DNA of 59,214 bases from a virus. The translations under genes were made by a program, and so were the position numbers. The stretch lies in IMG/VR virus record IMGVR_UViG_3300022885_000472, positions 1 through 59,214 of that record. One strand, written 5' to 3'. The notes beneath the pieces are model-generated. The model was not told where the DNA came from. It worked only from the letters and a program-made list of their open reading frames with translations, and made no database searches. Shown here one piece after another: positions 1,017 to 49,534 of this stretch (the stretch's first letter is position 1; every line of letters starts with the position of its first letter).

Positions 1017-1024
1017 GATAAATA
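1017..1024 (+). promoter_or_regulatory. Late-type promoter box GATAAATA, 5 nt before an ATG
   Basis: GATAAATA is followed by CTAGT and then the ATG at 1030. If initiation occurs 6-7 nt past the box, as at T4 late promoters, the transcript starts at or next to the ATG and has no leader. No Shine-Dalgarno sequence fits in this gap. Confidence 0.6.
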
Positions 1025-1029
1025 CTAGT

Positions 1030-1659
1030 ATGAGCGAAGGAATAACAGGCGACAATCTTGCTTCAGAGCAAGCAAATGCATTTTTTAAGAACATTGACTT
1101 TATAAGCATTGTAGACACCATTAAAAATATCTACATGTCAGACGGGTCGATGAATACTCTTTTGGATTTCGAAAGGGTCTTGGATGAAGCAGATGTGTAT
1201 GCCTTCAGAAATTGGATCAATGGTGAATTAGTGCAGGGCCCAGACATTGGAAGGTACGCATGTACATGTACTTTCATGTGGCCTTACACACTAATGCCAG
1301 ATCCAAGAGCCACATTGAGATTATCTGCAATCGGGTGCAGTGTTAAGGTAATGAAATCAAAAATTGAGGTTCCTGTCGCAGTTGAATCATACGAAGACTT
1401 TCAATCAGGAAGTCGTTATCCTAAAATGCAAGAAAACAAAGTTTGGTTTGTGCAAATAGAAATACCGTTTGATCTTATGGATGATATTAAAGAAGGTTCA
1501 GTCGATCTCGCTGATGAAACAATTGATTTATCAGAAATCGAGGACGCATATGACGCAGACCTTGACCAAGCAAAACCTGAAGATGCAGAAGATTCATCAG
1601 CCGCAATAGATGATGTAGTTGGCCAAGATGAAAATGTAGACGGAGCATTCCAAATATAA
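1030..1659 (+). CDS. Unknown phage protein, acidic C-terminus
   Basis: I do not recognise this 209-residue protein. The central part (about 70-155) looks folded and includes CTCTFMWPYTLMPD and a beta-rich stretch with RLSAIGCSVKV. The last 55 residues are strongly acidic (DLADETIDLSEIEDAYDADL). It has its own late-type promoter directly in front of the ATG and overlaps the next start by 1 nt (TAATG), so the two are translationally coupled. The late promoter suggests a morphogenesis or virion role, which is inference only. Confidence 0.75.
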   Translation: MSEGITGDNLASEQANAFFKNIDFISIVDTIKNIYMSDGSMNTLLDFERVLDEADVYAFRNWINGELVQGPDIGRYACTCTFMWPYTLMPDPRATLRLSAIGCSVKVMKSKIEVPVAVESYEDFQSGSRYPKMQENKVWFVQIEIPFDLMDDIKEGSVDLADETIDLSEIEDAYDADLDQAKPEDAEDSSAAIDDVVGQDENVDGAFQI

Positions 1660-2210
1660 TGAGTACTATAACTGAAAGTTTGAATTATTTAGATATGGAG
1701 GGACAGATGACCTCTTATCTTTCTATTGATGAATATGCCGCTAAGATGGGCGAAGACAAAGACATTATTACATTAACCTTTACTGTTAAATCAGAATCGG
1801 TAGGTGAGGATTTAGTTTCTTGGTTCGAACGAGGATATTCATTTGTCCTAGACGCGAGTGTAAGTGACGGTGAACTTGAACCTGGCAAATATCTAGTATT
1901 TGTTGAAATGGAAAGAAGATCATGGTCAGCCGGCAATATTATTCGATTGATCGAAGAGTTACAAACATTGACTGGTTATGCTCTTAAGGATTGGACTGTT
2001 AATATTAATGGTGAAGATTATCCATTAGAACTACCTCTATTAAAAGACCTGGTTATTTTAAATCCAGGTGAGTACAAAGAAACAGTGACTGACGAAGTAG
2101 AAGACGATCTCAACGAAATGCGATTAGCCGCTGGATTAGATCATAAATCATCAGCCTTAGTAAACAAAGACACTTACATTAAAGACCTTCAAGCCGCAGC
2201 CGGCATCTAA
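1659..2210 (+). CDS. Unknown phage protein with LNEMRLAAG motif
   Basis: This 183-residue protein is of unknown function. It begins MSTITES, which loosely resembles the N-terminal tag seen on several other proteins here. Near residue 150 it carries DDLNEMRLAAGLDH, a copy of a short motif recurring in at least three other proteins of the window. The middle is a mixed alpha/beta region with WFERGYSF and YLVFVEMERRSW. It is coupled to the preceding gene by TAATG. Confidence 0.75.
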   Translation: MSTITESLNYLDMEGQMTSYLSIDEYAAKMGEDKDIITLTFTVKSESVGEDLVSWFERGYSFVLDASVSDGELEPGKYLVFVEMERRSWSAGNIIRLIEELQTLTGYALKDWTVNINGEDYPLELPLLKDLVILNPGEYKETVTDEVEDDLNEMRLAAGLDHKSSALVNKDTYIKDLQAAAGI

Positions 2211-9009: not shown

Positions 9010-9624
9010 ATGAAGTTTAATGAGATAACAGAAAATGCATCATCTGGTGGCACTAGTGCAGGCAATGTCGCAACTGTAAATCAGCCAATGAATGGAATGC
9101 AGTCACGTAATCCTAGCATATATGGTGGTAAGAAAGCAGGTAACATGTTTACTGGTAAGAAAGCATCAGGCAAATATGCTAATAGTACAGTAGCACGTAA
9201 ACAAGCCAAAGTAAGTGAATCCACTAAAGTAACAGAAGATGATATAGCAGAACAAGAAGTTCTCGTAATACCAGGCGCTAAACGCAAGGACCGCAAGACA
9301 GGCTTTGTACCGCAAGGTGAGAGCAGAGTAGACCATGAAGTTAAAATGGCTAAGAGTGATCTATTTGCAACAGCGCAAAATGCGCAAGAAATAATGTCTT
9401 ATCTCAAAGATCGAAGTGAAGATGAAGGTATCAAAGGATGGATGCAATCTTATATCACACTAGCAAATGACTATCTCAACTCAGTTAAAGAATCATTACA
9501 ATACGAAGCGCAAATGCATGAAGCATCAGAATATGGTCAAGGCGAACCAAATGATCGTTTGGCGGCAGGTATGAAAATAGACACAGAGCCATATATGGAA
9601 TCTACAACAAAAGGAAACAAGTAA
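9010..9624 (+). CDS. Candidate head-packaged protein with capsid-targeting-like tag
   Basis: This 204-residue protein has no recognised domain. Its N-terminus MKFNEITENA matches the form of the T4 capsid-targeting sequence: basic and hydrophobic residues, then an I-T-E prohead-protease-type site. The next 60 residues are low complexity (Ser, Gly, Asn, Lys). A helical part follows (about 105-175). It is the first gene after a late promoter, 1 nt before the next gene. That it is packaged and cut is inference from the N-terminal pattern. Confidence 0.75.
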   Translation: MKFNEITENASSGGTSAGNVATVNQPMNGMQSRNPSIYGGKKAGNMFTGKKASGKYANSTVARKQAKVSESTKVTEDDIAEQEVLVIPGAKRKDRKTGFVPQGESRVDHEVKMAKSDLFATAQNAQEIMSYLKDRSEDEGIKGWMQSYITLANDYLNSVKESLQYEAQMHEASEYGQGEPNDRLAAGMKIDTEPYMESTTKGNK

Positions 9625-9625
9625 C

Positions 9626-10609
9626 ATGAGTTCTATACTAGAAGGAGCAGATCAAGGATACCTCGCAGAATACAATGCATCTGAGGACGAAAGACGATTA
9701 GAAGCATTACAACATTCTATAGGCGATGTTAGAAAAGCAACAAAAGGCGGTAAGTATCTTGGTAATGATGTCGTAGACATTATGGTACAAATAGAGACCT
9801 TTGCAGAACAGCTCGGTATTGATCCCGATGAACTTAGATACTATGAAGATCAAGTTAGAGAAGCGCAAAGCAATTTAGAATCTGCTATTTACGGACTAGA
9901 AGAACCATTTGAAGATGCTATTCGTAGTTTACAAGGTAAGATAGATGATGCAATATCAGATGCGGAATTTGCTGATGATGAAATAATTGATGAAGTGTTT
10001 GACAACGATGCTTTCAATGACATTTTTAAATCAAAACCGGATCGCAGGGAGCCAAGCAGACCAGATATTTCGGGTGCTAAACGAGTGGCAGATCGTAAAG
10101 TAGCAGGATCTAGTGAGTTACCTAAAATAAAAACTCTTCCAGGCGCGGCCCAATACACATCCGAAGATGGGAAGAAATCTCAAAGACTTGATCCATCATG
10201 TTGGAACGGTTACAAGAAACAAGGCACCAAGATGAAAGGTGATACCAAAGTTAACAATTGTGTTAAAAAAGAGTCACGTATTGGTAGCACACTTAGCATG
10301 GTGTCGGAAGAATACGAAAGAAATTTGCGCGAAGGTAATGGGAAAATGAGAAGCATAGCGGCAGGAGCTTTATTAATTGCTAGTCTATGGGGAGTTAACA
10401 ACCATTTAGCACAGCAAGCATACGATAGCAGTTCACAGTTACAACAGTTAACAGCGTTGCATCAAAAAGCAATTGATTCTCCTGGCCAAGAAGCATATGC
10501 AAAAGAATTGAAGCAAAGAATCGCTAACCATAAAATACGTTTAGACATAGGCAAAGGTGATATCCGTGATAAACACGGAGCAATCAAACAGATCACTAAA
10601 GAATCTTAA
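9626..10609 (+). CDS. Acidic helical protein with a Cys motif and hydrophobic segment
   Basis: This 327-residue protein is of unknown function. Residues 20-125 are acidic helices. Residues about 180-218 carry a compact motif with RLDPSCWNGYKKQGTKMKG and VNNCVKKES, which I recall in other marine phage proteins without known function. A hydrophobic stretch IAAGALLIASLWGVNNH (about 240-257) could be a membrane or amphipathic helix, and a basic helical tail follows. It starts MSSILEGADQGYLAEY, with candidate L-x-E sites. It is cotranscribed with the tagged gene before it. Confidence 0.72.
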   Translation: MSSILEGADQGYLAEYNASEDERRLEALQHSIGDVRKATKGGKYLGNDVVDIMVQIETFAEQLGIDPDELRYYEDQVREAQSNLESAIYGLEEPFEDAIRSLQGKIDDAISDAEFADDEIIDEVFDNDAFNDIFKSKPDRREPSRPDISGAKRVADRKVAGSSELPKIKTLPGAAQYTSEDGKKSQRLDPSCWNGYKKQGTKMKGDTKVNNCVKKESRIGSTLSMVSEEYERNLREGNGKMRSIAAGALLIASLWGVNNHLAQQAYDSSSQLQQLTALHQKAIDSPGQEAYAKELKQRIANHKIRLDIGKGDIRDKHGAIKQITKES

Positions 10610-10631
10610 TCAGATATAGAAACGTTATAAT

Positions 10632-11036
10632 ATGCAATTACGTGAAATAACTCAATCTAAGAGCCATAAAATCCCACAAACCGAAGGTATGGGTGGATCC
10701 TCTGGTGGAGGAACCGCAGGATCTGGCGGTGCTGGTGGCTCGTCATTAGGTCTTCCTTATCCATCGACATACGAAGAAGAAAACGACAAGTTTAAGACTT
10801 ATCACCCAATCGACAAAAACAAACGACCAATGCACAATCTTTCTATGACAACCGAAGAAGAGGATGAAGCAAAAACAATCAAGGATCGCCCAAAGAAGAC
10901 CAAGAAGCGTTATACATCCACGACAGCACAACAAAGAGAACTAGCATATGTTGAAAGTGCGGCTTTTAAAAAAGCATTGAAATTAGTAGAAAACTATTTG
11001 TGCCCGAGAGAAAGACTGACAGATAAATACATGTAA
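10632..11036 (+). CDS. Small tagged protein with Gly-rich linker
   Basis: This 134-residue protein starts MQLREITQSKSHK, a weaker form of the shared N-terminal tag with an L-R-E site. A Gly/Ser linker (about 20-38, GGSSGGGTAGSGGAGGSS) follows, then a charged, basic region and a short helical end with two Cys-free helices. No known domain is visible. It lies between a tagged protein and the Dps gene in one late unit. Confidence 0.65.
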   Translation: MQLREITQSKSHKIPQTEGMGGSSGGGTAGSGGAGGSSLGLPYPSTYEEENDKFKTYHPIDKNKRPMHNLSMTTEEEDEAKTIKDRPKKTKKRYTSTTAQQRELAYVESAAFKKALKLVENYLCPRERLTDKYM

Positions 11037-11050
11037 CAGGAACGATTATA

Positions 11051-11494
11051 ATGCTCGCAGAGAACCTTAAAATACTATTAGCAACATCATATGCATTTGT
11101 TATCAAAGTGCAAAACTTTCACTGGAATATAGAAGGTAGCAACTTTCCACAATACCACAAATTTTTTGATGATTTGCAAGGGGAAGTATATGACAATGCA
11201 ATCGATAGAACGGCTGAATACATTCGTACATTAGAATCCTATACCCCAGGTTCAATCACACGGTTTGCGGAATTATCATTAATACCAGATCAATTAAAAA
11301 TACCTAGAGCAGAGTTGATGTTTCAAGAATTATACAGAGACAATGAAATAATACTTGCACATTTAAAAGTATGCTATGATTCATGTGAAGCATCAGAACA
11401 TTATGGCATTTCTAATTTTATTGCTGAACGAATAGATGCTCAGAATAAACACCAGTGGATGTTACGAAGCACACTAAAGACATCTAGGGAGTAA
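11051..11494 (+). CDS. dps: Dps-like ferritin-fold protein
   Basis: This 147-residue protein has the Dps signature. H24 (NFHWN), H36, D40, D52 and E56 correspond to the ferroxidase ligands of Dps, with the D/E pair shifted by about one residue relative to E. coli. Dps proteins form 12-subunit shells that oxidise Fe(II) with peroxide and protect or compact DNA. The length is close to short Dps forms, without a long basic DNA-binding tail. It sits in the late block among candidate packaged proteins, 3 nt before the giant gene. It may protect phage DNA from oxidative damage or travel in the virion; both are inference. Confidence 0.85.
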   Translation: MLAENLKILLATSYAFVIKVQNFHWNIEGSNFPQYHKFFDDLQGEVYDNAIDRTAEYIRTLESYTPGSITRFAELSLIPDQLKIPRAELMFQELYRDNEIILAHLKVCYDSCEASEHYGISNFIAERIDAQNKHQWMLRSTLKTSRE

Positions 11495-11497
11495 CGC

Positions 11498-14400
11498 ATG
11501 CTCTCATCACATTACGAAAATCTATTACTAGAATACAGACAAGACAAGACCGCTGAAAAAATGGGTGTTGCTTTAGCCGACAGATTGATGACCGATGTCG
11601 ATAATAATCCAGACATCCTGGATGCAACCACAGCACTCCGAATACAAGAAATCGAGGCCTCAAAAGATCCAAAACATCCATTATCGAAAGAATGGAATGA
11701 GAACGATAAGATGACGCCTGAAGCAATAGAAGCACTAGTTGCAAAAGCCTACGATTTCCTTGCTATCAAAGTCTTGAATACATTAGAAAAGACAGACCCT
11801 ACAAAGAAGAAAGAATACGTACAATGGCTTGCGAGAATTTATATTAAAGATGCGATGTCGATAGAAGATATCCAATCTACTATCGCAGATTACTTAGAAA
11901 AATTTCATAAGTTAAAAATTAAGCGACATTTATCCAACGCTGACATCGGTCAGTTCAAAAGCTTCAGCCTATTCATGAATGAGCTAGATACTTTTTCAAA
12001 TGACTTGTTAGATGTTGAAGATGATGAATTAAGCCCCAAGAGAGATTATACAAAGTTATATGACGAAGATAATATTTTAGTTATTCATCCGAAAACTAAG
12101 GCGGCTGCCATGAAATATGGTAGAGGTACACGATGGTGTACAGCGGCCACTAGAGGACAAAATTACTTCACTCATTATAATAAACAGGGCCCTCTGTCTA
12201 TTTTTATTCCTAGACGACCCGATCATCCAGGAGAGAAATATCAGTTTCATAAAAACGGCCACGGTATAGTTGTTGCTGATGAGAAAGATGATTACCTCAA
12301 TCAACTAGAACAAATAAATCTCGTTGATAGATATCCTGGTCTTAAAAAAGCACTTAAAGATCAAGCCGCTGAGGCTGGTGCTATCTGGCTACAAGAGCCG
12401 ATAGAGACATCAACGGGTGATGGTTTTACATTAGACGAATATCGAAAAGATAGTCAACCATTTTATATTATAAAATCAACAGCAGACCCTTCCGAAGTAT
12501 ATACAGTCGTGCAAGGTACTAAGGGTTATCCAACAATTATGGCCCTCGATATTAACGGCCGTGGAAACACTTTAAATCTGATACAACAACGGAATTTTCT
12601 TAAAAAATACCCCGAATTAGTAACTAGATTCGGCGGAGATTCGATAGAAGAATTTGACCCAATTGATAACGTCGGGGATTTTGAAGTCGAGCAAATTAAA
12701 GGTGGGTATGTTGTTACAGATACAAATCCCCTAGAAGATGCTGACTTAGAGGCAGACGACTCTAAGGACCCCACCGCTACTAGACGAATTAGCGAGAATC
12801 AATACGGTATCAGCGTAAATATCCAGGAGGAGCGAGAAGAGGGTAGAAGATTTAGGCTTCCTATTGATCCGTTTACGATCATAGGAACTAGGCAAAGTGA
12901 TCACACACATGAACCCGCTAATCCATATGAATTTACAAGAAGAATTCCAGGCATGGTTGAATTTTTAGAGCCTAAGGTAAAGGAATTGCTGGATAAATCA
13001 CTAGACAGCATTAGCAAATTAAAACCCAGTGAGATAGGCTCTGGTAAGGGAGCCGCCGAAGAAAAAGCCGCGCTTGTACAAAAAGCATACGTAGATTTAG
13101 CATGGGCCATGCCTTATAAAATATACGATAACCCGAAGACAGCTATTAATTCACATGTAACTTATGAAGGCAAGCCGCTAGTAGATTATATCATATCCAA
13201 AATTAATACAGATTATATTTATACGGTAGAACATGATCTGGTTGAAGATACTAAGCCAAATATTAATAGTATAAAGATGTATCGCCTGAAGGATACGGCA
13301 ACTTATGAAAAATCTGAAGACGAAAGATTGATGTTCAATGTAAGTAATCTGGATAATCTGAAAGACAACAGTGGTAAGGCAATGGATACTCTAGCTAGTA
13401 TTTCGTTCTTGAAAGCTCATCCAGAATTAAAAAAAATGTATGCAGGTACGAGTCTGGTAGACCCAGTAGTTACTGAAACAGAAAACGTTCAAATTGAAGA
13501 TTATGGACTTCAGCGCAATGCTGATTATAGAGGTGGTGACAGCGATAACCCTTGGTATCCAACAACATGGAGAAACTTTGTGTTAGACTCTAAAGATGTG
13601 CCTGGACTTCAATACAGTATTACGTGGCCAATTGAAAACCCGGGCCTAACACAAGTACAAAGAATCAACACAGAAGGTACGGGATTGCTGGTTGACGACC
13701 ACCACAGAATCCAATCAATTTTAAAATTAGTACCCGAAATCAAAACACTACTAAAGAAAGATTTTAAAAAACAATTAGAGGCTACTGGTGAAGATGCCGC
13801 ACCTAATCGGGACAGGACTGGCCGCGGGGGAGGCAACCCATACCATGGCAACTACCATACGAAGTCGATACTACCTGATAACCTGCTTATTGATCCTACT
13901 GAAGTATATGAGGATGCCACTGTACAGATAGATCAATTCGGTCCATATGGTGGTCCTTTTTCGCTCCCTAGATTTGTTGTCACTCCAAAAACCGAAAACC
14001 CTTTTGGTAGTGTAGGTGATACGTTTTATATAGACATGCAAACTAAAGACCGCAGGGGCAAGGCAGGTAAGATTGCCTCAATTGTAATCAGAAGAATGGC
14101 AAAAGCAGTCTATAGACATGAAGACGGAAACGGAAATCCTTTTGCTGATGAGCTTGATAATCCCGGTACATTTGTAGAAGATTCGATAGATTTACCAGCA
14201 AAGCACGTAATAGACTTCTTCAAGGCTTATCCAGGACTTAGGCGCATGGTGAAGGATGAGAATGTACATGCAACTGTGCCGCACCCTGCTCTAGCAGTTA
14301 AAGCAGATGACATAGAAGCCGCAAAAGAAGGAGTCCGGGACTTTCCTGCGTTTACAATGGAAGATGTTCCTGGCGTGAAGGGTTCATATTATGTTATCCC

Positions 14401-17074
14401 TAAGGAAGAAACATTTAATGATGAATACTATACCATTCAAGTTCAACAGGAAGATGATGAACTACCAAAACAATACGGCAATGGTATCAGAATACCAACA
14501 ATACAACTATTTTCAGGTGAGTCAAGAGAAATGCTAGCCAAGTTGAGTGGAACTTATGGAAGCAATCGCGGCAGAAGTAGATCAGTTAAAATTCCGACTA
14601 ATACTGAAGAGTTTAATGCAATACTTGCGCGATTCCCAGAACTATTACCATTCTTAATCGACCTAGCAAAAGAGGAAGGATCATTAACATTACAGAATCC
14701 CGAAAATGTTACTGAGATAGGTATTCATAGAGTGTATGAGTTTACGAACGCTGATAAAAGTAAACAATATGTAGTTACTCCTATAGGCAACCCAGTAAGA
14801 CCAGCTGTAGGCCAGATTGATAGCGAACAAGATGCCGAGACTCAACGCGCATACCGGGGCAGTAACGGCGATGACGGGAACATGATACCATCCGAGACCT
14901 GGAACCGCAATTCAATCACCATAAATTTTGAAAGTACTCAGGACAATATGGATCAGTTTGTCGAGTTAAATACCTTGCCGGACATTAAAGAACTTGCGTC
15001 TTTGGTAGAAAAAATTCCATATGAAGAGGCTAAGCAGAAGCACATGAACGCTGTCGATGAGTTTACACGTACTAGTACCAACTTTGTCGATGAGTATAGA
15101 CGTTCTCATAACGGTTTTAGAACAGTTGATCATGCGTCACCAGAGATATTACGCATTAGAGGAGATGCACCTTTAAAGAAATATTTTGAAGATTTAGCAG
15201 AAGCAAGAAATGCAGAAACTAAAGGTATCGGAGATTTCATTAACTTTTTACCAGACACTACCAACTTAGGTTCACTCCCTGCTAGTATTACGGTGTTTGA
15301 TCTGCCAATACTAACTATTACTAAACTCGGAATTGCAAATCCTATAATATTCTATCTTTATCATGTAAGGCAATCTTTACAAGCATTGAGTGATTTAGAC
15401 CCTAAGGCTTTGAAAGCTATGGCTATAAAGTTGGGTGCAGATGAAAAAGAAATAGAAGATATTGATTGGTCAACTAGCGATACGATAGCCCGCTCCAGAT
15501 ACAGCCATACATTAAACCAGAAGTTTATGGCCGCTGGATTTGGTAAAGTATTCTCCGAGGGATGGAATGATGGCATGAGAGCTAGTATAGGAAGAGAACT
15601 GACAGACCAGCATATGATGGCATTTAAACCAGAGTCTGGTACGTATTTTGAAGGGCGAGGCAACTCACCAAATATCCTCGTACAAACTAATTCTCTTGTG
15701 GAACCATTCTTGTATAACCGCCTTCCTGGTCTAAAAGAGCAGATGTCCCCGAAAAAAGCAAAAGAAAATGGCTTGGCTCCTGCTTCCGTATGGAAGCCTC
15801 AGGCCGATACTCCGAAACCTAACCTACAGAATGACGGCAAACGATGGATCAAGAACATAGAAAAATTCAATATGCCCAATGGATTTACATTAATTAGTGG
15901 TAGGGGATACTATCGCGCTCAAGCAACACATACTCGGTTAGCGCCCGGTACTCTATACAAGATTAACCTGAATCCCATAGAGCATGATGCCGCAATGGGT
16001 GCCAGCCAGTCCCTTATGCAACTAGGTAAGAATTATCGGGACTTGCGATATAAACTTTTTAATAAATCGCAAAGCAACTTTTTCTATATGTACTTCGTAA
16101 ACAATAAAACTGCTATAATTATAGATGATCAAGGTCAAAAAATGCCACTCTCGACTAAAGACAAAGAAGCATTGTTCTTTGGTATACCCAGGCGCGGCCC
16201 TGATGGTGAGGATGTTAGGACATTGGGTTTGATGCCAGAAATAAGGTCTGCATTCGACGAATACAAAAAGTCTAATAAATGGATGCGCGAAGCATACGCT
16301 CACCAGCATCATCTTAATCGATTCTTGGTAGAATCATTCGATAACTTGACATGGACAATTCAAACCGAGAACAACAATAATTATAACAAATTGCATTTCT
16401 TAAAACCAGGAGAATTACGTGGCTCTTACTCAGATAGTCAACTTATAAGTTTGGGCTTTAAGAAATCAAATAACGGACACTTTTATATACCACAAACAAA
16501 ATGGGACACTCTAATTAATACAGGTAAGCTCAAAGAAATGACACTGCGACCATTGAAAACAGGGAAAGCAAAGATTGCTCAGACTGGCAGTAAGAAAATA
16601 GCAGAAGAAGATGACGATGACACACTAACATTGCCTAAAATTAAAGTAGGTGATGAAGTTAAAGTGGGCAAGTTTAAAAACCGCAAAGCAGAAGTAACTG
16701 GCTTTGCCAAAGATGAGAACAATCATCCTTTACTCAAAACTACTAAAGGTGAGCAACAAGTATTCAAGCCACGTTTCTCTAAACTGATGAAAGAAGAAGA
16801 CGATGCAGTTATCGAAGAAGGGAAGAAATTCCCAAGAACAAGTGAGTTCTTGCATGTCAGGGAATTAGATGATATTAAGCGATTGGCTGGTGTCTATGAT
16901 CCATATGTTGACGAAGGTGATAGCTCAATGGGTTCGAACATATCCAAGACTTCTAGTAAAATTGCACAGACAATGAGGGATAAAAAAATACAACCAGGCA
17001 CCCCAGAATGGTTTCAATTATGGTTCTCAAAGCCATACTTAACGGGTGAAAAGCCCACTGGAGATGAGGAATGA
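11498..17074 (+). CDS. Giant 1858-aa protein, candidate internal virion protein
   Basis: I do not recognise a full-length family. The N-terminus MLSSHYENLLLEYRQD has an L-L-E site. Residues about 190-275 contain a conserved-looking block with GRGTRWCTAATRG, YFTHYNKQGPLSIFI and GEKYQFH, a W-C-T-A type motif I recall from other phage proteins of unknown function. The long middle is soluble alpha/beta with several PGL/K-rich repeats of the form FLKAHPELKKM or FFKAYPGLRRM, suggesting a repeated module. Near residue 1705 a KOW-like segment (KVGDEVKVGKFKNRKAEV) occurs, then RELDDIKRLAGVYD, the motif recurring in other proteins here. It may be a large ejected protein; this is inference. Confidence 0.8.
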   Translation: MLSSHYENLLLEYRQDKTAEKMGVALADRLMTDVDNNPDILDATTALRIQEIEASKDPKHPLSKEWNENDKMTPEAIEALVAKAYDFLAIKVLNTLEKTDPTKKKEYVQWLARIYIKDAMSIEDIQSTIADYLEKFHKLKIKRHLSNADIGQFKSFSLFMNELDTFSNDLLDVEDDELSPKRDYTKLYDEDNILVIHPKTKAAAMKYGRGTRWCTAATRGQNYFTHYNKQGPLSIFIPRRPDHPGEKYQFHKNGHGIVVADEKDDYLNQLEQINLVDRYPGLKKALKDQAAEAGAIWLQEPIETSTGDGFTLDEYRKDSQPFYIIKSTADPSEVYTVVQGTKGYPTIMALDINGRGNTLNLIQQRNFLKKYPELVTRFGGDSIEEFDPIDNVGDFEVEQIKGGYVVTDTNPLEDADLEADDSKDPTATRRISENQYGISVNIQEEREEGRRFRLPIDPFTIIGTRQSDHTHEPANPYEFTRRIPGMVEFLEPKVKELLDKSLDSISKLKPSEIGSGKGAAEEKAALVQKAYVDLAWAMPYKIYDNPKTAINSHVTYEGKPLVDYIISKINTDYIYTVEHDLVEDTKPNINSIKMYRLKDTATYEKSEDERLMFNVSNLDNLKDNSGKAMDTLASISFLKAHPELKKMYAGTSLVDPVVTETENVQIEDYGLQRNADYRGGDSDNPWYPTTWRNFVLDSKDVPGLQYSITWPIENPGLTQVQRINTEGTGLLVDDHHRIQSILKLVPEIKTLLKKDFKKQLEATGEDAAPNRDRTGRGGGNPYHGNYHTKSILPDNLLIDPTEVYEDATVQIDQFGPYGGPFSLPRFVVTPKTENPFGSVGDTFYIDMQTKDRRGKAGKIASIVIRRMAKAVYRHEDGNGNPFADELDNPGTFVEDSIDLPAKHVIDFFKAYPGLRRMVKDENVHATVPHPALAVKADDIEAAKEGVRDFPAFTMEDVPGVKGSYYVIPKEETFNDEYYTIQVQQEDDELPKQYGNGIRIPTIQLFSGESREMLAKLSGTYGSNRGRSRSVKIPTNTEEFNAILARFPELLPFLIDLAKEEGSLTLQNPENVTEIGIHRVYEFTNADKSKQYVVTPIGNPVRPAVGQIDSEQDAETQRAYRGSNGDDGNMIPSETWNRNSITINFESTQDNMDQFVELNTLPDIKELASLVEKIPYEEAKQKHMNAVDEFTRTSTNFVDEYRRSHNGFRTVDHASPEILRIRGDAPLKKYFEDLAEARNAETKGIGDFINFLPDTTNLGSLPASITVFDLPILTITKLGIANPIIFYLYHVRQSLQALSDLDPKALKAMAIKLGADEKEIEDIDWSTSDTIARSRYSHTLNQKFMAAGFGKVFSEGWNDGMRASIGRELTDQHMMAFKPESGTYFEGRGNSPNILVQTNSLVEPFLYNRLPGLKEQMSPKKAKENGLAPASVWKPQADTPKPNLQNDGKRWIKNIEKFNMPNGFTLISGRGYYRAQATHTRLAPGTLYKINLNPIEHDAAMGASQSLMQLGKNYRDLRYKLFNKSQSNFFYMYFVNNKTAIIIDDQGQKMPLSTKDKEALFFGIPRRGPDGEDVRTLGLMPEIRSAFDEYKKSNKWMREAYAHQHHLNRFLVESFDNLTWTIQTENNNNYNKLHFLKPGELRGSYSDSQLISLGFKKSNNGHFYIPQTKWDTLINTGKLKEMTLRPLKTGKAKIAQTGSKKIAEEDDDDTLTLPKIKVGDEVKVGKFKNRKAEVTGFAKDENNHPLLKTTKGEQQVFKPRFSKLMKEEDDAVIEEGKKFPRTSEFLHVRELDDIKRLAGVYDPYVDEGDSSMGSNISKTSSKIAQTMRDKKIQPGTPEWFQLWFSKPYLTGEKPTGDEE

Positions 17075-17514
17075 GATTCTTAGAATTTATGGCAGAGTCA
17101 GTAACTTTTTCAGCTACTAAAGCAGTCCCACATGAAAAATATGGGACCATCGACGAGTTCATGTCTGACTCGCCTGAAATGAATGTGAGCAATGGTAACG
17201 CAATGGCAATACAAAGAATGCTTGGTCTCGTTCCTGATTATGGCGGTACAATAAAACACGAAGATATACCCAACATTCTACGTACATTGATGCGATTAAA
17301 AAATTCAGATACAAGCCAACACACGCAGGCACCATCCAAGACTGGTGGGGAGATGGGCCGATACAAAGATGATGACGGCATGGATAGAATAGGTAAAAGT
17401 GCAACAATGCATGACGCGGGCCGATCTAATGACCAAGTAAATCTTTATATTGATCGTTTATTTGAAATTCTTACCTTTGCACAAAAAAATGAAGGAGACT
17501 TAAGTTGGGGGTAA
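17071..17514 (+). CDS. Tagged protein of unknown function
   Basis: This 147-residue protein starts MRFLEFMAESVTF, a clear copy of the shared tag with an M-A-E site. The rest is polar, with a helical segment at about 45-80 and another at 125-142, and no known domain. It overlaps the giant gene by 4 nt (ATGA) and the next gene by 10 nt, so the three are translated together. Confidence 0.7.
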   Translation: MRFLEFMAESVTFSATKAVPHEKYGTIDEFMSDSPEMNVSNGNAMAIQRMLGLVPDYGGTIKHEDIPNILRTLMRLKNSDTSQHTQAPSKTGGEMGRYKDDDGMDRIGKSATMHDAGRSNDQVNLYIDRLFEILTFAQKNEGDLSWG

Positions 17515-17987
17515 AGAAGTTTGAGATCATACCAACAGAACCACGATGTGGCGATTGTACCGCATGTTGCGAATCAACAGGATTTACAGGTGACTGGAAA
17601 AAAATAGACCGATACAACGAAGCAGAAGCATCTGGTATAGATTTTGGTCCTTGGAGCACTTGCAATAAACTTTGCAGTACAGGTTGTTCTATTCAAGACA
17701 CCAAACCCAGAACGTGTACCGATTTCTTTTGTCATTTCATAGAACACGATTTAGAAGATAAGTTTAGACCCAAAGAGTTTGGGTATATTGCATTTACAAG
17801 TCTCGATAAGAACAGTGAAAACATAGAGATTATGTCTTTGGACCATACCTTACCTGCGGAAACACAATATAATAACAACAAAAAAATGTTAGATGAGTTA
17901 ATTGACAAAGTGCGTATAAGTCTAGGCAAGGAATATGTATATGCTACTCTACACACTAAAAAATCTGGAATCAAACGAATAAGATGA
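17505..17987 (+). CDS. YkgJ-like CxxCxxCC cysteine-cluster protein
   Basis: This 160-residue protein has the YkgJ-family pattern: RCGDCTACCES near residue 15, then further cysteines (about C53, C57, C61, C70 and C75) spaced as in this putative zinc/iron-chelating family. The TTG start at 17505 is supported by AAGGAGACTTAAG immediately upstream; there is no ATG at the N-terminus. It overlaps both neighbours. Its direct coupling to the asparagine-synthase-like gene suggests the two act on the same target, but the substrate is unknown. Confidence 0.8.
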   Translation: MGVKKFEIIPTEPRCGDCTACCESTGFTGDWKKIDRYNEAEASGIDFGPWSTCNKLCSTGCSIQDTKPRTCTDFFCHFIEHDLEDKFRPKEFGYIAFTSLDKNSENIEIMSLDHTLPAETQYNNNKKMLDELIDKVRISLGKEYVYATLHTKKSGIKRIR

Positions 17988-19420
17988 AGTTTTTCATATG
18001 CGACGATAATACTAAGTTCACCAAGACCGAGTATAAATCGTTTGGTAAGTGGCACTTCTACTGCGACGACCTAGTTAAAATATATGAAAATTCAGACTTT
18101 ATAGTATTGTATTGTGGTTATCTGATTCAAGGAGATATACTAGAAGCGTGTAAGAACTTTAGTTTTGATGACGAAAACGGAAATTTCTTTGCTGTGAAAC
18201 TGACCAAAGATGCTTACCAGATATCAATAGATTATTTTCAAAATCATAAGTTGTTTGTCGCAACCAAATACGGAACAGAGATTACTAACTATCTTCCGTA
18301 CATGACAATCACCTTAAAGGATGTTGTTAGAAAAACTCTTACATATGACAAGTATGAACGTGAGATAATGCCCAAAGAGTCTGAAACTTTCTATGATCAT
18401 ATCAACTCGTTTGTCCCTCCATATGATTATATACAAGACAGCAAAGATGCTCTTGCACAAGAATACTGGGATAACTTCGAGGAATTTGCTGAGTACATAC
18501 ATCAATGTATGGAATCACATGCAGACGTAATTAAGAAAAACTATCCTAATAGATTTTGCTCATTAAGTGAAGGGATCGATTCTGCGGTCCAATCACAATA
18601 TTTTTATGATGATCCGCAATATCTTTATGACTTCTATCCATGTGACGCTGGTGCCATTCACAAAAAATATATAAAAATTGCACAAAGTAATTTTACTAAT
18701 ACACATCATGTCACTTTCTATGCAAAAAATAACAAAGAAGAATGTTATAAACATCTAGTGGATTCTACTTGTCGCTGGCAAGTTATTATACCTACTTTCA
18801 AACAGCTTTCAGACTGTCCAGTAAAACCGGATATTGTTTTGTATGGAGTGAACGGTGACGAAGTATTCTTGCGAGATTTAATACCTCATTTACTATTGCT
18901 ATCTTTAAAATATTATGATATACTCGATACTACTAGCATGATAGCCCAACTTCGACAAGAGATCGAATCTAAAAAAGGGCATTATGCATCAACGTACTCT
19001 TTGCCATCAAAAGAGAACAGTAAAACAACAGATACATTTCTTAGAAAGTTTTTAAATGATTGGTTTAAGACAGAGACTAAAGAGAAATGGTATTTATTTA
19101 AGAGAAGCCGCGAGGACATAGAAAATGCCTTATTAATGTACACTACGCCTAAACTATACACACGTGCAATCAGTTGTAACAGTGATATAATGTGTGCATC
19201 GTTATACAACGACAGAAGAATATATCACGAGTTTTTCAAGATGGAAAACCACTTCTTAGAAGGTGATGCCATGGATGCTCCTATCCAAAAATTAATACTA
19301 AATAAGTTTGAATACGAGTTTATTACACCTAGTAAGGATGTTCTTTTTGGGAACTATGATGAACTGTATGCTCACACCTACGGAGCAACTATTGATAATG
19401 ACTTGGACCAAAACATATAA
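17984..19420 (+). CDS. Asparagine-synthase-like ATP-pyrophosphatase protein
   Basis: This 478-residue protein resembles class B asparagine synthetase in layout. Residues 1-110 look like the Ntn-type glutaminase domain (GNFFAVKLTKDAYQISIDYF), but the Met is followed by Lys-Phe rather than the catalytic Cys, so glutaminase activity is not expected. At 195-200 SEGIDS replaces the PP-loop SGGxDS, and VLYGVNGDEVF near residue 287 matches the metal-binding GxxADE region. AsnB-like enzymes without glutaminase activity form amide bonds in peptides or sugars, for example the lasso-peptide cyclase. It is coupled (ATGA) to the CxxCxxCC gene. The substrate cannot be read. Confidence 0.65.
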   Translation: MKFFICDDNTKFTKTEYKSFGKWHFYCDDLVKIYENSDFIVLYCGYLIQGDILEACKNFSFDDENGNFFAVKLTKDAYQISIDYFQNHKLFVATKYGTEITNYLPYMTITLKDVVRKTLTYDKYEREIMPKESETFYDHINSFVPPYDYIQDSKDALAQEYWDNFEEFAEYIHQCMESHADVIKKNYPNRFCSLSEGIDSAVQSQYFYDDPQYLYDFYPCDAGAIHKKYIKIAQSNFTNTHHVTFYAKNNKEECYKHLVDSTCRWQVIIPTFKQLSDCPVKPDIVLYGVNGDEVFLRDLIPHLLLLSLKYYDILDTTSMIAQLRQEIESKKGHYASTYSLPSKENSKTTDTFLRKFLNDWFKTETKEKWYLFKRSREDIENALLMYTTPKLYTRAISCNSDIMCASLYNDRRIYHEFFKMENHFLEGDAMDAPIQKLILNKFEYEFITPSKDVLFGNYDELYAHTYGATIDNDLDQNI

Positions 19421-20016
19421 TGCGATTTAACGAATTCAAAGACCTTACAGAAAACTCTTATAAAGGTGACGGCTCGCCTGGCATGGTGATGGGTATTGCA
19501 AGTGATGCTCGTGGTGGTACATACGAAGACACAGACCTTACAGAATACGAGCTAGACAATGAAAATGGTTTAGGAGCTGTCCCTAACAACAGTGGCGACA
19601 ATCCAGATTACTTTGGTATTCGTGTAATGATGACTCCATCCATATTTCATAGATTGGCGGCATCCTTAGGTGACTATCGTGCAGGAGATTTTGAAGGGTT
19701 GGTAAAGAAAGTTGCAGATGGTGTACCTATTGCTAGTCCATTTTTAAAAATTACTATACCTGATAGGTGGGAAGGTGATCCACCTATCTTTCATGATCCA
19801 GCACGTGTAGATGGACATGAAGGAAGACATCGCATGCATGCTGTACATGAAGTAGACGGAGATGTTCCCGTAGAAGTTCATATATGGGGACGATTTCAAA
19901 GCAGTGAAATGCGTAGAAGACACTTAACTGACGAGATGATCGAAGAAATACTTAACGGCTTAATCAATGAGGCCGGTAACGAATACGTTCATAACATTGG
20001 AACTCTTAAGAGATAA
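19420..20016 (+). CDS. Tagged protein with ParB/Srx-like GHEGRHR motif
   Basis: This 198-residue protein starts MRFNEFKDLTENSY, the shared tag with an L-T-E site. The core (about 65-170) contains VDGHEGRHRMHAVHEV, similar to the DGxHRxxA phosphate-binding signature of the ParB/sulfiredoxin fold, followed by VPVEVHIWGRF. Proteins with this motif often occur in phage and conjugative polyvalent proteins. It shares one base with the preceding stop (TAATG). Its own stop lies inside the next late promoter. Confidence 0.7.
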   Translation: MRFNEFKDLTENSYKGDGSPGMVMGIASDARGGTYEDTDLTEYELDNENGLGAVPNNSGDNPDYFGIRVMMTPSIFHRLAASLGDYRAGDFEGLVKKVADGVPIASPFLKITIPDRWEGDPPIFHDPARVDGHEGRHRMHAVHEVDGDVPVEVHIWGRFQSSEMRRRHLTDEMIEEILNGLINEAGNEYVHNIGTLKR

Positions 20017-20019
20017 ATA
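20012..20019 (+). promoter_or_regulatory. Late-type promoter GATAAATA, 5 nt before an ATG
   Basis: GATAAATA overlaps the preceding stop codon and is followed by CTAAT and the ATG at 20025. The layout is the same as at 1017-1030 and predicts a leaderless transcript. Confidence 0.6.
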
Positions 20020-20024
20020 CTAAT

Positions 20025-20876
20025 ATGAAACACTCTGAAATAATGGCAAAACTAAGCGAAGGTAAATTCATTCCTGGATTTATGGGAGCCGATGGTGAAA
20101 CTACTGCTACTCCTACAAAGAAAGATTATGATTCGAATGATGAATATCAAACGACGAAAGCAAAAGGGATCGCACCTGATGTTGACGAGAAGCACTGGGA
20201 CGGATCAAAACCTGAGGATACGATACACGAGGAATCAGACGAAGAAATGAATGACATGAAAAGATTAGCTGGTCAAGCAGTAGAGGAAAATTTAGATATA
20301 GTTAGAGATCCAGAACATGGTATGCTCAACTATGAAAAATTCTTTGACTTCTTACGGAATATGCCTAGTAACTCTACTAGTGTTGATAAAATAAAAGCAC
20401 TCATTAACACGTATGAGTTAAGTAGACCTGAAGCAAGAGATATTATGAATATCGCTCGCCTTCAACGAGTAGTCGAACATGACATCAGTGTAGAAGATGC
20501 TGAATTGAATGAAATCTCACGCTTATCAGGACTTGGAGAAGCTCGTCCTGTACGCAGTGAGTATGACGATGACGATGATGACGATGATTATGAAGACAAG
20601 TCACCAGTAACTCCAGATGGTGATACCGTCCCTCACCTGTTAATGCAACTCAAAAAAGCAAAAGATGTTGATGGTGAGTATCCTATTAAATTTGCCGATG
20701 GAACAGAACACGTTCTTTCAATTTCCAGAATAAACGATTTTATAGGGATATACATGGCAATAAAACCACTGGACAGGGAAAAGCTACAGGAAGTGGCTAT
20801 CATGAGTAAAAAGCAATTCGATAAAATCTTAGACTTGTTTGTACCTGGCGCACAAAAAAGTACTGACGAGAAATAA
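20025..20876 (+). CDS. Acidic tagged protein with two LNDIKRLSG-type motifs
   Basis: This 283-residue protein starts MKHSEIMAKLSEGKF, a tag with an L-S-E site. It contains EMNDMKRLAGQA near residue 74 and ELNEISRLSGLGEA near residue 162, two copies of the motif seen in other proteins of the window. An Asp-rich run (DDDDDDDYED) follows at about residue 182, then a folded C-terminal domain (about 205-280). The function is unknown; late promoter and tag suggest a head protein. Confidence 0.7.
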   Translation: MKHSEIMAKLSEGKFIPGFMGADGETTATPTKKDYDSNDEYQTTKAKGIAPDVDEKHWDGSKPEDTIHEESDEEMNDMKRLAGQAVEENLDIVRDPEHGMLNYEKFFDFLRNMPSNSTSVDKIKALINTYELSRPEARDIMNIARLQRVVEHDISVEDAELNEISRLSGLGEARPVRSEYDDDDDDDDYEDKSPVTPDGDTVPHLLMQLKKAKDVDGEYPIKFADGTEHVLSISRINDFIGIYMAIKPLDREKLQEVAIMSKKQFDKILDLFVPGAQKSTDEK

Positions 20877-21900: not shown

Positions 21901-23349
21901 ATGGAATATTTCCCCTGGCTACTAGCAGGTACAGCATTCGGATTTATGTTTGGTATAATTCCTGTCGCTGGAGCGGGTATTGGACTGATTAGTATGTTCG
22001 GCTTTATCGAAATTTTTCGTCCAGACCCTTACACTATAGTGGTATTCTCAACAGCACTTGTATGTGCCGCGGCTATCGGTGATAGCTTTGCTAGTGTGGT
22101 GATGAACATACCAGGAGCAGGCGGAAGTGCCGCTACTATGGTAGATGGCTTTCCAATGACACAGAACGGAGAAGCAAGTAGAGCATTAGGTGCCGCTCTT
22201 GCTACATCAACAGTAAACGGATTGATCTGGGGAGGACTAGTATTTGCTTTCTTGCCCTACTATGCATCAGCAATAATGGCGTTCGGTATGCCAGAGATGT
22301 TAGCATTCTTACTACTAGCATTTGCGACTGTATGTTTTGTTAGCAGTGAATACTGGTTCAGAGGAATCATTGCTCTATGCATAGGTGTTACAATAGGACT
22401 CATTGGAGAACACCCGATCACAGGTGAAGCACGATTCACATTAGGTTGGGATTATCTTGGTGCTGGAGTTCAAATGGCTCCTTTACTAGCAGGTGTATTA
22501 GCAGTACCAGAACTTGTAATAGCATACAGGAACAGACACAAGACTAAGATACCTCAGATTAGAAGTGAGTGGTCAGGTATGTGGCAAGGCTTTAAAGATA
22601 GTTGGATTCACAAGTGGGACGGACTACGAGGTGGATTCGTTGGCGCAGTTGTTGGGATAATACCTGGCATAGGTGGCAACATTGCAGACTGGTTAGCATA
22701 TGCACAAACAGTTGCGATAAACAAAAACGAAAAGATTCCATTCGGTTCAGGTAATGTCAAAGGAGTCATCGGTACTGAAGGTGCAAACAATGCACAAAAA
22801 GCAACAAGTTATGTACCGACTATATTGTTTGGTATCCCAGGTGCAAACTTTGAAATCATTATCATGTCATTGTTTATGATTGTAGGATTTGAGATGGGTA
22901 CACCTGAAGTCTTAGAAGATATGACATTCTTTAAGTATCTGTTTAGCAGTTACATGTGGGCACTGCTGTTAAGTTTTATACTTGGGTTATTCTTCTACAG
23001 ATATGCAGTCAAAATAACGAATATAGATTTTAAATATTACTTCTGGCCTATCATTGCATTACTTGTTTGGTCAAGTGTGCAATACACAGGTTACTGGGAA
23101 GATTACGCATTCTTTATCATAGCATGTACATTAGGCATGTTTCTTAGAGTGAACAAATTAAGCAGAGCGGCTTTTGTGATAGGGTTTGCATTATCACACC
23201 GCATTGAATCTACGAGCGTGGCATACATTGCACTATATGATACCCTTGATATCTTTACAAGACCAATCAGTGGTTCATTAATGGCTCTTATTATCGTAGC
23301 CATAATATACGGTATATTTTTTAACAAAACGAGGATAAAATATGTTTAA
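21901..23349 (+). CDS. tctA: TctA-family permease of a tripartite tricarboxylate transporter
   Basis: This 482-residue integral membrane protein is near the usual 500-residue length of TctA and has about 11-12 hydrophobic segments. Family signatures are present: GIIPVAGAGIGL near the N-terminus, NIPGAGGSAATMVDGFPM with GEASRALGAA, and the second-half repeat GIIPGIGGNIADWLAYAQ. TctA is the large permease of TTT systems that import carboxylates with a periplasmic binding protein. No TctB (small 4-TM subunit) gene is next to it. It overlaps the outer-membrane protein gene by 8 nt and is driven by a T4-type late promoter. It is an auxiliary gene of host origin by inference. Confidence 0.93.
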   Translation: MEYFPWLLAGTAFGFMFGIIPVAGAGIGLISMFGFIEIFRPDPYTIVVFSTALVCAAAIGDSFASVVMNIPGAGGSAATMVDGFPMTQNGEASRALGAALATSTVNGLIWGGLVFAFLPYYASAIMAFGMPEMLAFLLLAFATVCFVSSEYWFRGIIALCIGVTIGLIGEHPITGEARFTLGWDYLGAGVQMAPLLAGVLAVPELVIAYRNRHKTKIPQIRSEWSGMWQGFKDSWIHKWDGLRGGFVGAVVGIIPGIGGNIADWLAYAQTVAINKNEKIPFGSGNVKGVIGTEGANNAQKATSYVPTILFGIPGANFEIIIMSLFMIVGFEMGTPEVLEDMTFFKYLFSSYMWALLLSFILGLFFYRYAVKITNIDFKYYFWPIIALLVWSSVQYTGYWEDYAFFIIACTLGMFLRVNKLSRAAFVIGFALSHRIESTSVAYIALYDTLDIFTRPISGSLMALIIVAIIYGIFFNKTRIKYV

Positions 23350-26634: not shown

Positions 26635-27142
26635 ATATTTTAATATATTTACCGGCAACCATATCGGCAGCCGCCTCTATTGGTGATCCAGGATAACTGC
26701 TACCTGGAGTGATTAAATTCTTTTCGCCTTGTCTAATATGAACTAATTCATGGAATACTGTTCGCATAATATCAATTAAGTTTCTGTTACCATAGACCCA
26801 AATTTCATCAGAGCCTACTTCATGTCTACCTGTATGGTGACCTTCTTGTGCTTCTTCTGTGTCGTAACTAATTACGATCTTGGGCATGTTTTCAATCTTA
26901 AGAAGTTTGCCCATCCAGTCTGCGCCTTTCTGTGCTTCGTCTTCTATGTTAAGACCATCGTCAAACATTTCATCAGAGGCGGTTAACTGCTCTCTAGCCT
27001 TATGTGCTTGTTTAGCGGCATCTTGGGCATTGCGATAAATTTTGCCCTTTTCGTCTACATCATATTGATCACTTTTGATCTTAGGAAGTCTATTCTCTAA
27101 GTCTTTTAGCGGGGATTCTGTTATAAAGTCTATTGCTCTCAT
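26603..27142 (-). CDS. Tagged zinc-metalloprotease-like protein
   Basis: This 179-residue protein starts MRAIDFITESPLKD, the shared capsid-targeting-like tag with an I-T-E site. Its C-terminal half holds HELVH (in TVFHELVHIRQGE) and, about 22 residues later, EAAADMVAGKY, giving the HExxH plus distal Glu ligand set of gluzincin-like zinc proteases. A late-type promoter lies 6 nt before the ATG. It may be a protease packaged in the head and delivered at infection, or act during assembly. Catalysis is inferred from the motif only. Confidence 0.75.
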   Translation of the reverse strand: MRAIDFITESPLKDLENRLPKIKSDQYDVDEKGKIYRNAQDAAKQAHKAREQLTASDEMFDDGLNIEDEAQKGADWMGKLLKIENMPKIVISYDTEEAQEGHHTGRHEVGSDEIWVYGNRNLIDIMRTVFHELVHIRQGEKNLITPGSSYPGSPIEAAADMVAGKYIKIYGEQNNHIFQ

Positions 27143-27148: not shown

Positions 27149-27156
27149 TATTTATC
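27149..27156 (-). promoter_or_regulatory. Late-type promoter GATAAATA (minus), 6 nt before an ATG
   Basis: Read on the minus strand, GATAAATA is followed by TATAGC and then the ATG of the tagged metalloprotease gene. No ribosome binding site fits, so a leaderless transcript is predicted. Confidence 0.6.
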
Positions 27157-40409: not shown

Positions 40410-40489
40410 TGGCCAGCGCGCCAGTTGTCTATGTTGCAGTAGAGAATGGGACATCGGTAATTATACACAACACATAACGAGGATAGAAA

Positions 40490-41164: not shown

Positions 41165-41167
41165 TTA

Positions 41168-47521: not shown

Positions 47522-49534
47522 TTAATGCATCAATAGATATGTGCCCAATACATCTGAGCGATTTGCTGAGTCATCACCATCGCCTGGAGCAACAACAACA
47601 TTATACAAATTATTTCTGAAATTTCTAGCACCATCTGCGTGGGCTCCGCCTAGAGGAGTATCCATCATTTCTGAATAACTAATAATAGTAGATTTATCGA
47701 TAGAGTATTTTGCGGTTAAGCGATCTTTGAATGTCTCCCAATCTTCAGGGTTATTCCATTGAATGCGGCCGCCTGCATCTTTAATGAGTTTATTACCGTC
47801 TTTTTGGATAAGATCAGTAAACATTTCTCTAGGAACAACTGACGAATGTTTTGTCGTGCCGAAATCAACTCGTCTTTCTTCTGCTTTTCTGGCACCCATT
47901 GAGAAATTAATCATAAAGTTAGGTGGTCTATTTTGATTCGATCCTGCAACGTCAGCCATTTTAGTATATGCGTAGAAGTCTACTGTTGGATGAGTGGCCG
48001 CCATTTTGTATGCCATCTCTAAATATTCTTGAGAAAAGAAATCTCCTGCATCATGCCAACGTATAACAACTTTGTGTTTGTCTTGTTTCGCATCGCCCTT
48101 ACGTTTTTCTTGATCAATTTCTCCACTTAGTGTTACAAAGAAGCCAGTCGGATCATTGTATAAAAAGTTTAGTATTTTTGTTTGACTCATCGATACAGCA
48201 GACCATTGTACATACCCACCTTTTAATGCATAGCAGTATGTCTTGCATTCTCCTGCGCCTGGACATGTATTAATAACAACGAATTCTTTCTTTTCTTCAT
48301 TGTAGCCTAGACCTGTTAGTGCAGGTAAGCCAATGTTGTAGAAAATACTAGTAGTACCGTCACTATGTTGCATTTTTTCATTTTGTTTAAGTAATTTCTT
48401 TGGTCGCTCAGTGATATCTGCGGCCAATTTGTCTAAATCGTATTCATGTCCGTCTGGATCAACAATTGGAATCAAATTCTTGACAGTTGATCGGTGAACA
48501 TATGGCAGTTTGTACTTGTCCGTTTTGCCTTTTTCCTTATCCAAGATTCGGTCTAAATAATCCACAAGTTCTTTCTTGTCAAGTTTTCTAGTTTGTGCGT
48601 CTATTGCTTCATCAACATGGCCTGACAATTTCTTAATGTCATTTAACTCCGAGTCTGATTCTGCGATGGTAGCAGTCCCGCCATTGTTAAATTCTACTGC
48701 TTTGTTGACAACCTTCGTGATCAAGTCATCTGTGTCCATCTCAAACCATTCTTCCTTGTCACCTATTTGTAACAAAATAGCAGGATGATAACCATGCTTG
48801 TAATCCTGGTTGACTTCGCCTACTTTAGTACCATTGATAATTATAGTACCATTATCAATATTTACGATGTCGCCGTCGATGTTCCACTCTTTGCCTTCTT
48901 CCATAGTAGACGTTTCCGCAAGGTCGTCTGCTGGTGCTTCTGCATCTGCTTCTTCTCTGTCTGGACCTTTTGGACCTTTTGACCTTAGCATTTTATCAGC
49001 TAAATCTGCGTCGAGTGCTTCGTCAACATAACCAGATAATTTCGTGTTCGGAGTGTATCTTAATGATCGACCGACTTTACTTTCAATATCGCCTTTGTCG
49101 TCGCTTTCAGCGTAATATTCATCATTAACTTCGGCTTGTGTAGACAACACTCCAGTACCATTACATTTTGGACACTGTATCGGCACATTCCTAGTGTAAT
49201 CAATTACCCATGTGTCTCCATAACAGACATTGCATTCTTCTGAAGAGTTTGAACGTGGTACAGGACTATTCCACTTTTCATTAACTGCTTCAATTTCTTC
49301 TTCAGCTTCTTCTTCCCCTGCAGGTAATTCAACTCCTTCGTCTTTTAAGAACTCGGGTAGGGTTTCGATATCCCAACCATTAACCATGGAATCTAGTGTT
49401 TGCTCTGCATGAGAGGCGAATTTCGCATTATTTTTAGTAAACTGTGATGTTTCGCCTGGATTTGATTCGGGTAAACGAGTCTTGACTTCAACTTCGTTCT
49501 CTGTTAATATGTCTAGTATATTGCGTAAATCCAT
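47522..49534 (-). CDS. Tagged protein with zinc-finger and GP88 domain
   Basis: This 670-residue protein starts MDLRNILDILTENEVE, the shared tag with an L-T-E site. Near residue 100 two CxxC pairs (ECNVCYGD and QCPKCNGTG) form a DnaJ-type zinc finger. SELNDIKKLSGHVDEA and NTKLSGYVDEALDA are copies of the recurring internal motif. The C-terminal 280 residues carry CPGAGECKTYCYALKGGY and RWHDAGDFFSQEYLEMA, the signature of the phage GP88 domain of unknown function. Its late-type promoter lies upstream with GGAAAAAGAG before the ATG. A head-packaged effector is possible. Confidence 0.75.
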   Translation of the reverse strand: MDLRNILDILTENEVEVKTRLPESNPGETSQFTKNNAKFASHAEQTLDSMVNGWDIETLPEFLKDEGVELPAGEEEAEEEIEAVNEKWNSPVPRSNSSEECNVCYGDTWVIDYTRNVPIQCPKCNGTGVLSTQAEVNDEYYAESDDKGDIESKVGRSLRYTPNTKLSGYVDEALDADLADKMLRSKGPKGPDREEADAEAPADDLAETSTMEEGKEWNIDGDIVNIDNGTIIINGTKVGEVNQDYKHGYHPAILLQIGDKEEWFEMDTDDLITKVVNKAVEFNNGGTATIAESDSELNDIKKLSGHVDEAIDAQTRKLDKKELVDYLDRILDKEKGKTDKYKLPYVHRSTVKNLIPIVDPDGHEYDLDKLAADITERPKKLLKQNEKMQHSDGTTSIFYNIGLPALTGLGYNEEKKEFVVINTCPGAGECKTYCYALKGGYVQWSAVSMSQTKILNFLYNDPTGFFVTLSGEIDQEKRKGDAKQDKHKVVIRWHDAGDFFSQEYLEMAYKMAATHPTVDFYAYTKMADVAGSNQNRPPNFMINFSMGARKAEERRVDFGTTKHSSVVPREMFTDLIQKDGNKLIKDAGGRIQWNNPEDWETFKDRLTAKYSIDKSTIISYSEMMDTPLGGAHADGARNFRNNLYNVVVAPGDGDDSANRSDVLGTYLLMH

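Follow-up and report, generated by a model that had tools for sequence, protein, structure and literature searches.

Unrelated proteins of a T4-type jumbo phage fragment begin with leaders resembling the T4 capsid-targeting sequence

The internal proteins of phage T4 (IPI, IPII, IPIII and Alt) carry a capsid-targeting sequence (CTS), an amphipathic N-terminal leader of about 10 residues that ends in hydrophobic-x-Glu, precedes unrelated bodies and is cut by the gp21 protease. Mutations in T4 IPIII placed targeting at residues 4 and 7 and processing at residues 8 and 10 (PMC9026906). Leaders of this form, here called tags, were found on unrelated proteins encoded in a 59,214-base stretch of viral DNA (IMG/VR record IMGVR_UViG_3300022885_000472, analyzed whole and hereafter called the window). 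The tags share with it the amphipathic N-terminal form, a length of about 10 residues, the hydrophobic-x-Glu site and the unrelated bodies, and relatives of the phage encode a gp21 homolog. They differ from the T4 CTS in being attached to more cargo families, in ranging from 6 to 18 residues, most often in a form shorter by one residue (M-R-A-x-[DEQ]-F-I-x-E), and in that some of the cargo also carries copies of the scaffold tail and of the maturation site of the major capsid protein (MCP).

Other described systems share some of these features. The head propeptides of SPN3US and phiKZ also belong to jumbo phages with a Glu-specific prohead protease and ejection proteins, but they are mostly longer than 100 residues (PMC5694885) and come from another phage lineage. 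The capsid-targeting sequence of P1 DarB is likewise an N-terminal packaging signal, for antirestriction cargo (PMC9024508), but the P1 Dar proteins lack a common consensus and are unrelated in sequence to the tags described here. Metallopeptidase and ADP-ribosyltransferase domains of polyvalent phage proteins have been suggested as injected effectors (PMC7824862), in a work from which the term capsid-targeting is absent. A literature search, which did not take in most subscription papers, found no paper on such tags in T4-type jumbo phages. The kind of signal is already known from T4; its breadth and the mimicry of scaffold and shell look new. For most jumbo phage genes no function is known. 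With a readable head-loading code, unknown proteins packed with the DNA could be recognized from sequence alone across a large uncultured group of aquatic phages, and a list of candidate injected enzymes would follow.

The window is a fragment of a T4-type jumbo phage. By DNA polymerase, its closest isolates are Sinorhizobium phage Phosso and Agrobacterium phage Atu_ph07, both T4-type jumbo phages of 470-490 kb. Hundreds of related contigs are present in IMG/VR, including a near-identical contig of 69 kb (G003), the relative G001 of 335 kb (polymerase 71%) and several further pieces of 36-117 kb.

A common leader on unrelated proteins

Seven N-termini singled out by an earlier, sequence-only reading were all exact and lie on good open reading frames; proteins are named below by start position, with (-) for the minus strand, and a slash marks the presumed cut. 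Six are strong members. These are MKFNEITE/ of a 204-aa protein (9010-9624; tag 9010..9033, plus strand), recovered by regular expressions (regexes) and matrix and kept in the G007 and G004 orthologs; MRFLEFMAE/ of a 147-aa protein (17071..17097, plus), recovered by both; MRFNEFKDLTE/ of a 198-aa protein (19420..19452, plus) and MKHSEIMAKLSE/ of a 283-aa protein (20025..20060, plus), both recovered by matrix; MRAIDFITE/ of a 179-aa HExxH protein (26603-27142; tag 27116..27142, minus), hereafter the metalloprotease; and MDLRNILDILTE/ of a 670-aa GP88 protein (47522-49534; tag 49499..49534, minus), the last two traced through ortholog N-termini. As that reading had stated, the bodies are unrelated: no BLAST similarity extends past the first 18 residues, save for 22 residues that match weakly in 20025 and 49534(-) (E=0.014) and correspond to a second shared motif, the scaffold-tail motif described below. 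Because codons differ among the seven tags, their likeness is at the protein level. A recent duplication of one gene start was considered and rejected as a misfit with these codons.

Orthologs of the metalloprotease, 27142(-), were taken from IMG/VR, and removal of five wrongly anchored starts left 29 distinct N-termini. The presumed P1 Glu is present in 29/29, and 26 fit the T4-derived pattern. In an alignment of 26 orthologs, E9 is the sole invariant among the first 14 residues and its flanks vary freely. One ortholog starts MKTYQIVLES, beside MKTYQEFIAEA in T4. The conserved tag positions would match the targeting and processing positions of IPIII if, as we infer, the register is offset by one residue. 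A subfamily of six orthologs (L262, L279, L282, L293, L294 and L296) contains a Lys/Arg-rich and then Gly-rich insert directly after the tag Glu, for example MRATEFLTE/KKRKRKSK.

A position matrix trained solely on these metalloprotease orthologs was scored on 75 window genes, and the next four ranks went to 19420, 9010, 17071 and 20025 (shuffle E 0.000, 0.025, 0.05 and 0.4). Elsewhere the matrix matched MRAREFITEA and MRAHEFLTES in G001, MRATEFIAEA, MRINEILTES and MRAREFLSEG in G007, and MRYNEFSKES in Phosso. The 49534(-) tag was missed by this matrix; among GP88 orthologs, a leader ending in hydrophobic-x-Glu was counted by eye in 45 of 47 distinct N-termini. The best T4 match of the matrix is gp2, the DNA end protector (76061-76885, minus strand), which starts MAIFQIINE/S.

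A strict regex drawn up from T4 substrates, together with a shorter form, matched three window genes, compared with 0.05 expected from residue shuffles and 0.14 from column shuffles. It matched none of 366 internal Met positions in the window and none of 237 control genes, taken from lambda and from portions of phiKZ and E. coli. A looser regex matched five window genes against 0.10-0.18 expected. The same patterns gave eight matches in T4, including two IP-type proteins, Alt, gp22 and gp24; this recovery is evidence that the regex works, though not of its independence, because it was drawn from such proteins.

Leaders and bodies have been exchanged among relatives. The leader of 19420 (SYKGDGSPGMVMGIASDARG, here after LSE/N) stands on the body of 20025 in G007_34299, and the body of 19420 has the leader MRAREFLSE/G in G007_32004. 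The body of 20025 is found in relatives with the leaders MKINELFE/S (in G005_41303) and NYLSE/N. The Glu site is retained through every leader change, and an L-[ST]-E/N site is kept between swapped bodies.

The proposal that each tag ends at (I/L/M)-x-E or a similar site had to be corrected for 10632, where ITQ has no Glu. Because the relative G007_22953 reads MRLHELQE/GMG, the likely site in this 134-aa protein shifts to QTE18/GMG: the leader MQLREITQSKSHKIPQTE/ (10632..10685, plus) is probably cut after E18 rather than at ITQ/S. Tags generally present hydrophobic-x-Glu before a small residue, the form of a gp21-type site, with 10632 doing so solely at the shifted position. The count of at least seven stands with that correction, 10632 being the weakest member, and three proteins probably extend it. 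A probable short tag, MSTITE/ (1659..1676, plus), begins a 183-aa virion structural protein (phrog_13138, head and packaging), whose ortholog G002_10771 starts MNKKLLSE/G and ends FKALAGL; the families matched by 1659, and also by 1030, are of virion structural proteins. Another probable short tag, MSSILE/ of a 327-aa protein (9626..9643, plus), was added from sequence form alone and resembles the MCP N-termini MSKLFES. The third, MLSSHYENLLLE/ of an 1858-aa protein (11498..11533, plus), has the ortholog G007_24421 with MLSSQFENLILE (tag-matrix E 0.05).

Head genes of relatives and similar segments in tagged proteins

A gp21-type protease gene had been suggested as a check on the tags. Because the record is a fragment, a search of the 59-kb window with Peptidase_S77 (PF03420) gave no gp21 match; no portal or MCP gene was seen there either, and questions about the head were therefore put to relatives. 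Peptidase_S77 was present in all four near-complete relatives (G001, Phosso, Atu_ph07 and CBB), with T4 as a working control, so that on this check the relatives speak for the tags. Portal and gp23 profile matches lie near gp21 in G001, Phosso and Atu_ph07, and gp22 was assigned by position and form. The gene order is T4-like (portal, small gene, acidic gene, gp21, gp22-like, gp23), interrupted by inserted genes in Phosso and in Atu_ph07. Tag-type leaders also begin gp22, gp23 and the product of the small gene that separates gp21 from the portal gene. In Phosso this small gene is the one starting MRYNEFSKES, and its place is taken in T4 by gp67, a prohead core protein.

The 9010 protein carries more than a tag. 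Clade MCPs read, for example, KE/NASAGSTSAGNIATLNRV at their presumed maturation site, a cut assigned by comparison with T4 gp23, and the 9010 protein reads TE/NASSGGTSAGNVATVNQ. The segment ENASSGGTSAGNVATVN (9031..9081, plus), which copies this site and the sequence after it, is identical to the best MCPs at 13/17 positions. A strict MCP-site pattern found 11 proteins in 12 genomes, exclusively MCPs or tagged proteins, and a looser search added CBB_293, MKKKKVNE/NASSGATSAGG. T4 gp61.1 (54 aa; 18966-19130, minus) reads MKTFKEFIKE/D followed further on by IGTTSGAVVNKGP, resembling gp23 past its cut (AAGQTSGAVTQIGP). CBB_293 (52 aa; CBB 213937-214095) shares the gp61.1 design, and both genes are near a primase gene.

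The C-terminus of the clade scaffold gp22 is NVID[IL]KRLAGL or near it at 39 loci. A matrix of this tail, trained without cargo sequences, gave as top window matches ELDDIKRLAGV in the 1858-aa protein (16862..16894, plus) and EMNDMKRLAGQ in the 20025 protein (20244..20276, plus), both with shuffle E 0.00. Looser matches are a second copy in 20025, NEISRLSGL (20508..20534, plus), and NDIKKLSGH in the GP88 protein (48617..48643, minus). All nine genes with the tail outside gp22, from four families, have [LIMF]xE within residues 5-18, compared with 20% of genes; because the families are few, this joint test of tail and tag is suggestive, not strong. Cargo may use a multi-signal code that imitates head proteins, combining a core-binding leader, a shell maturation segment and copies of the scaffold C-terminal motif (NVIDIKRLAGL), with a changing enzyme set moved by mimicry and leader swapping; we put this forward tentatively, as somewhat short of an even chance. 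If real, the scaffold-tail and shell-segment copies would show where cargo docks in the prohead.

Virion evidence, proposed route and alternatives

Virion proteomes of two relatives bear on packaging. Among the 611 genes of CBB, the strict pattern matched only CBB_299 and CBB_321, each annotated as a virion structural protein. CBB_299 (tag MRFSQITE/D) and CBB_320 (MQKKELLNAILE/A), which adjoins CBB_321, are in the CBB virion mass spectrometry table (PMC5259590). In Atu_ph07, nine of 16 strict matches fall within CDS 31-76, a block of which 29 proteins were detected in virions (PMC6102473); compared at block level, the tag array in this virion-protein-rich block is consistent with packaging. 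The array itself (39484-50592, minus; L208, L151) is a tandem series of tagged proteins starting M[KR]W.QL[TN]E with a common YRG...E core. It is ADP-ribosyltransferase-like by motif, and its gp53 also has a zeta-toxin-type P-loop domain. The array proteins were considered as T4 Alt relatives, for which profile comparison gave no support (hhalign probability 0.2%), the likeness being solely in the YRG...E motif.

Expression appears to be late. The late-promoter-like element GATAAATA, which resembles the T4 late promoter TATAAATA, lies 5 nt before the ATG of 20025 (20012..20019, plus) and 6 nt before that of the metalloprotease gene (27149..27156, minus). ATAAATA was found within 25 nt upstream in 28 of 37 distinct upstream regions of metalloprotease orthologs. 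In this clade a late-promoter-like NATAAATA is seen 4-7 nt before the ATG (window 1017-1024, 20012-20019 and 27149-27156(-); 26 cases in G001), a spacing that implies leaderless late mRNAs; in T4, Atu_ph07 and Phosso the element is never less than 12 nt from the ATG.

The tagged proteins would be late, head-directed cargo of a T4-type jumbo phage. That a T4-type leader with a gp21-type site directs them to the head, as the sequence-only reading had proposed, is very probable: the leader form, the Glu site and the gp21 gene of relatives all fit, while the site given for 10632 had to be corrected. The capsid-targeting sequence would be a short amphipathic leader of 6-18 residues, typically M-[KR]-x-x-[EDQN]-[FIL]-[ILV]-x-Glu, that binds the prohead core made by gp22; a gp21-type protease would cut after the terminal Glu, and the mature protein would remain beside the DNA inside the head. 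For this phage, both the cleavage and the presence in virions are predictions. The 9010 family would add the sequence that follows the cleavage site of the shell protein, and the gp22 tail motif in 20025, 49534(-) and 11498 may dock these proteins where the scaffold docks. The bodies so delivered would include the HExxH, GP88-domain, ParB/Srx-like and 1858-aa proteins, and, on the model of T4 Alt and IPI, many tagged proteins would probably enter the host by ejection.

Several points weigh against this proposal. Taken singly, the 10632 leader is weak, as is each of the short tags on 1659 and 9626. CBB_321, a tagged HExxH protein annotated as structural, is absent from the CBB virion mass spectrometry table (PMC5259590). 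The tag matrix also scores T4 gp2, which is not known to carry a CTS, and the T4 IP tags, longer by one residue, escape its fixed register. Internal LxE sites, tried as a hallmark of tagged proteins and rejected, have equal density in tagged and other proteins. Finally, gp21 and the remaining head genes do not lie within the 59-kb fragment.

In the likeliest alternative, the tags would be core-binding leaders on structural proteins of the head or inner body, which are kept in the head or serve assembly, and not on host cargo. Scaffold and shell proteins of T4 and its relatives bear a leader of this kind, phAPEC6, a related jumbo phage, contains a rod of protein within its head (PMC7247149), and a core role would suit the 1858-aa protein and the copies of the scaffold tail. 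However, the HExxH and GP88 bodies look enzymatic, and bodies change readily from one close relative to another, as host-directed cargo should; we regard this alternative as unlikely, though worth serious weight. Targeting without cleavage, in which the leader binds the core and stays on, has a precedent in T4 IPIII, where Asp at position 10 blocks processing and permits targeting (PMC9026906), but P1 is Glu, not Asp, in 29/29 metalloprotease N-termini, which leaves it improbable. Slightly less probable still is that one short gene start spread by recombination alone and plays no part in targeting. Leaders are clearly exchanged between bodies, but codons and residues 2-5 vary among the window tags, only the P1 Glu stays invariant across deep divergence, and the same form recurs on gp22, on gp23 and on the small protein encoded between the portal gene and gp21. 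A coincidental resemblance of N-termini rich in Lys and Glu, as AT-rich phage genes encode, suggested by the shortness of the tag and the weakness of every single case, is contradicted by the shuffles, internal-Met controls, cross-family matrix and 237 control genes, and is very improbable.

Bodies of the tagged proteins and neighboring genes

The cargo had been said to include a metalloprotease-like protein, a GP88 protein and a ParB/Srx-like protein. The metalloprotease-like protein is 27142(-), the GP88 assignment holds, and the third is a likeness by motif alone (GHEGRHR in 19420). In the metalloprotease, HELVH is invariant in aligned orthologs; the best Foldseek matches include the IrrE and selecase zincins and are weak (E above 0.02), and the tag region of the predicted structure is at very low confidence. 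The GP88 domain of 49534(-) (PF17338) scored 107 bits against a gathering score of 24.4, and a fold search with this protein returned nothing significant, TIM-barrel-like at best. Pfam, NCBIfam and PADLOC contained no family for most tagged bodies, and IMG/VR scans for relatives of 19420, 20025 and 17071 found the near-identical contig alone. CxxCxGxG zinc-finger-like inserts occur in three unrelated tagged proteins: the GP88 protein (47522-49534(-), residues 99-133), G007_29996 and G007_34299.

Other genes were seen among or near the tagged ones. A ferritin-like, Dps-type gene (window 11051-11494; PF00210, phrog DNA binding protein) lies within the cargo block. A full-length TctA permease of a tricarboxylate transporter (PF01970, E 1e-84) is encoded at window 21901-23349, in a phage, and a gene at window 23929 appears TctC-like by eye alone.

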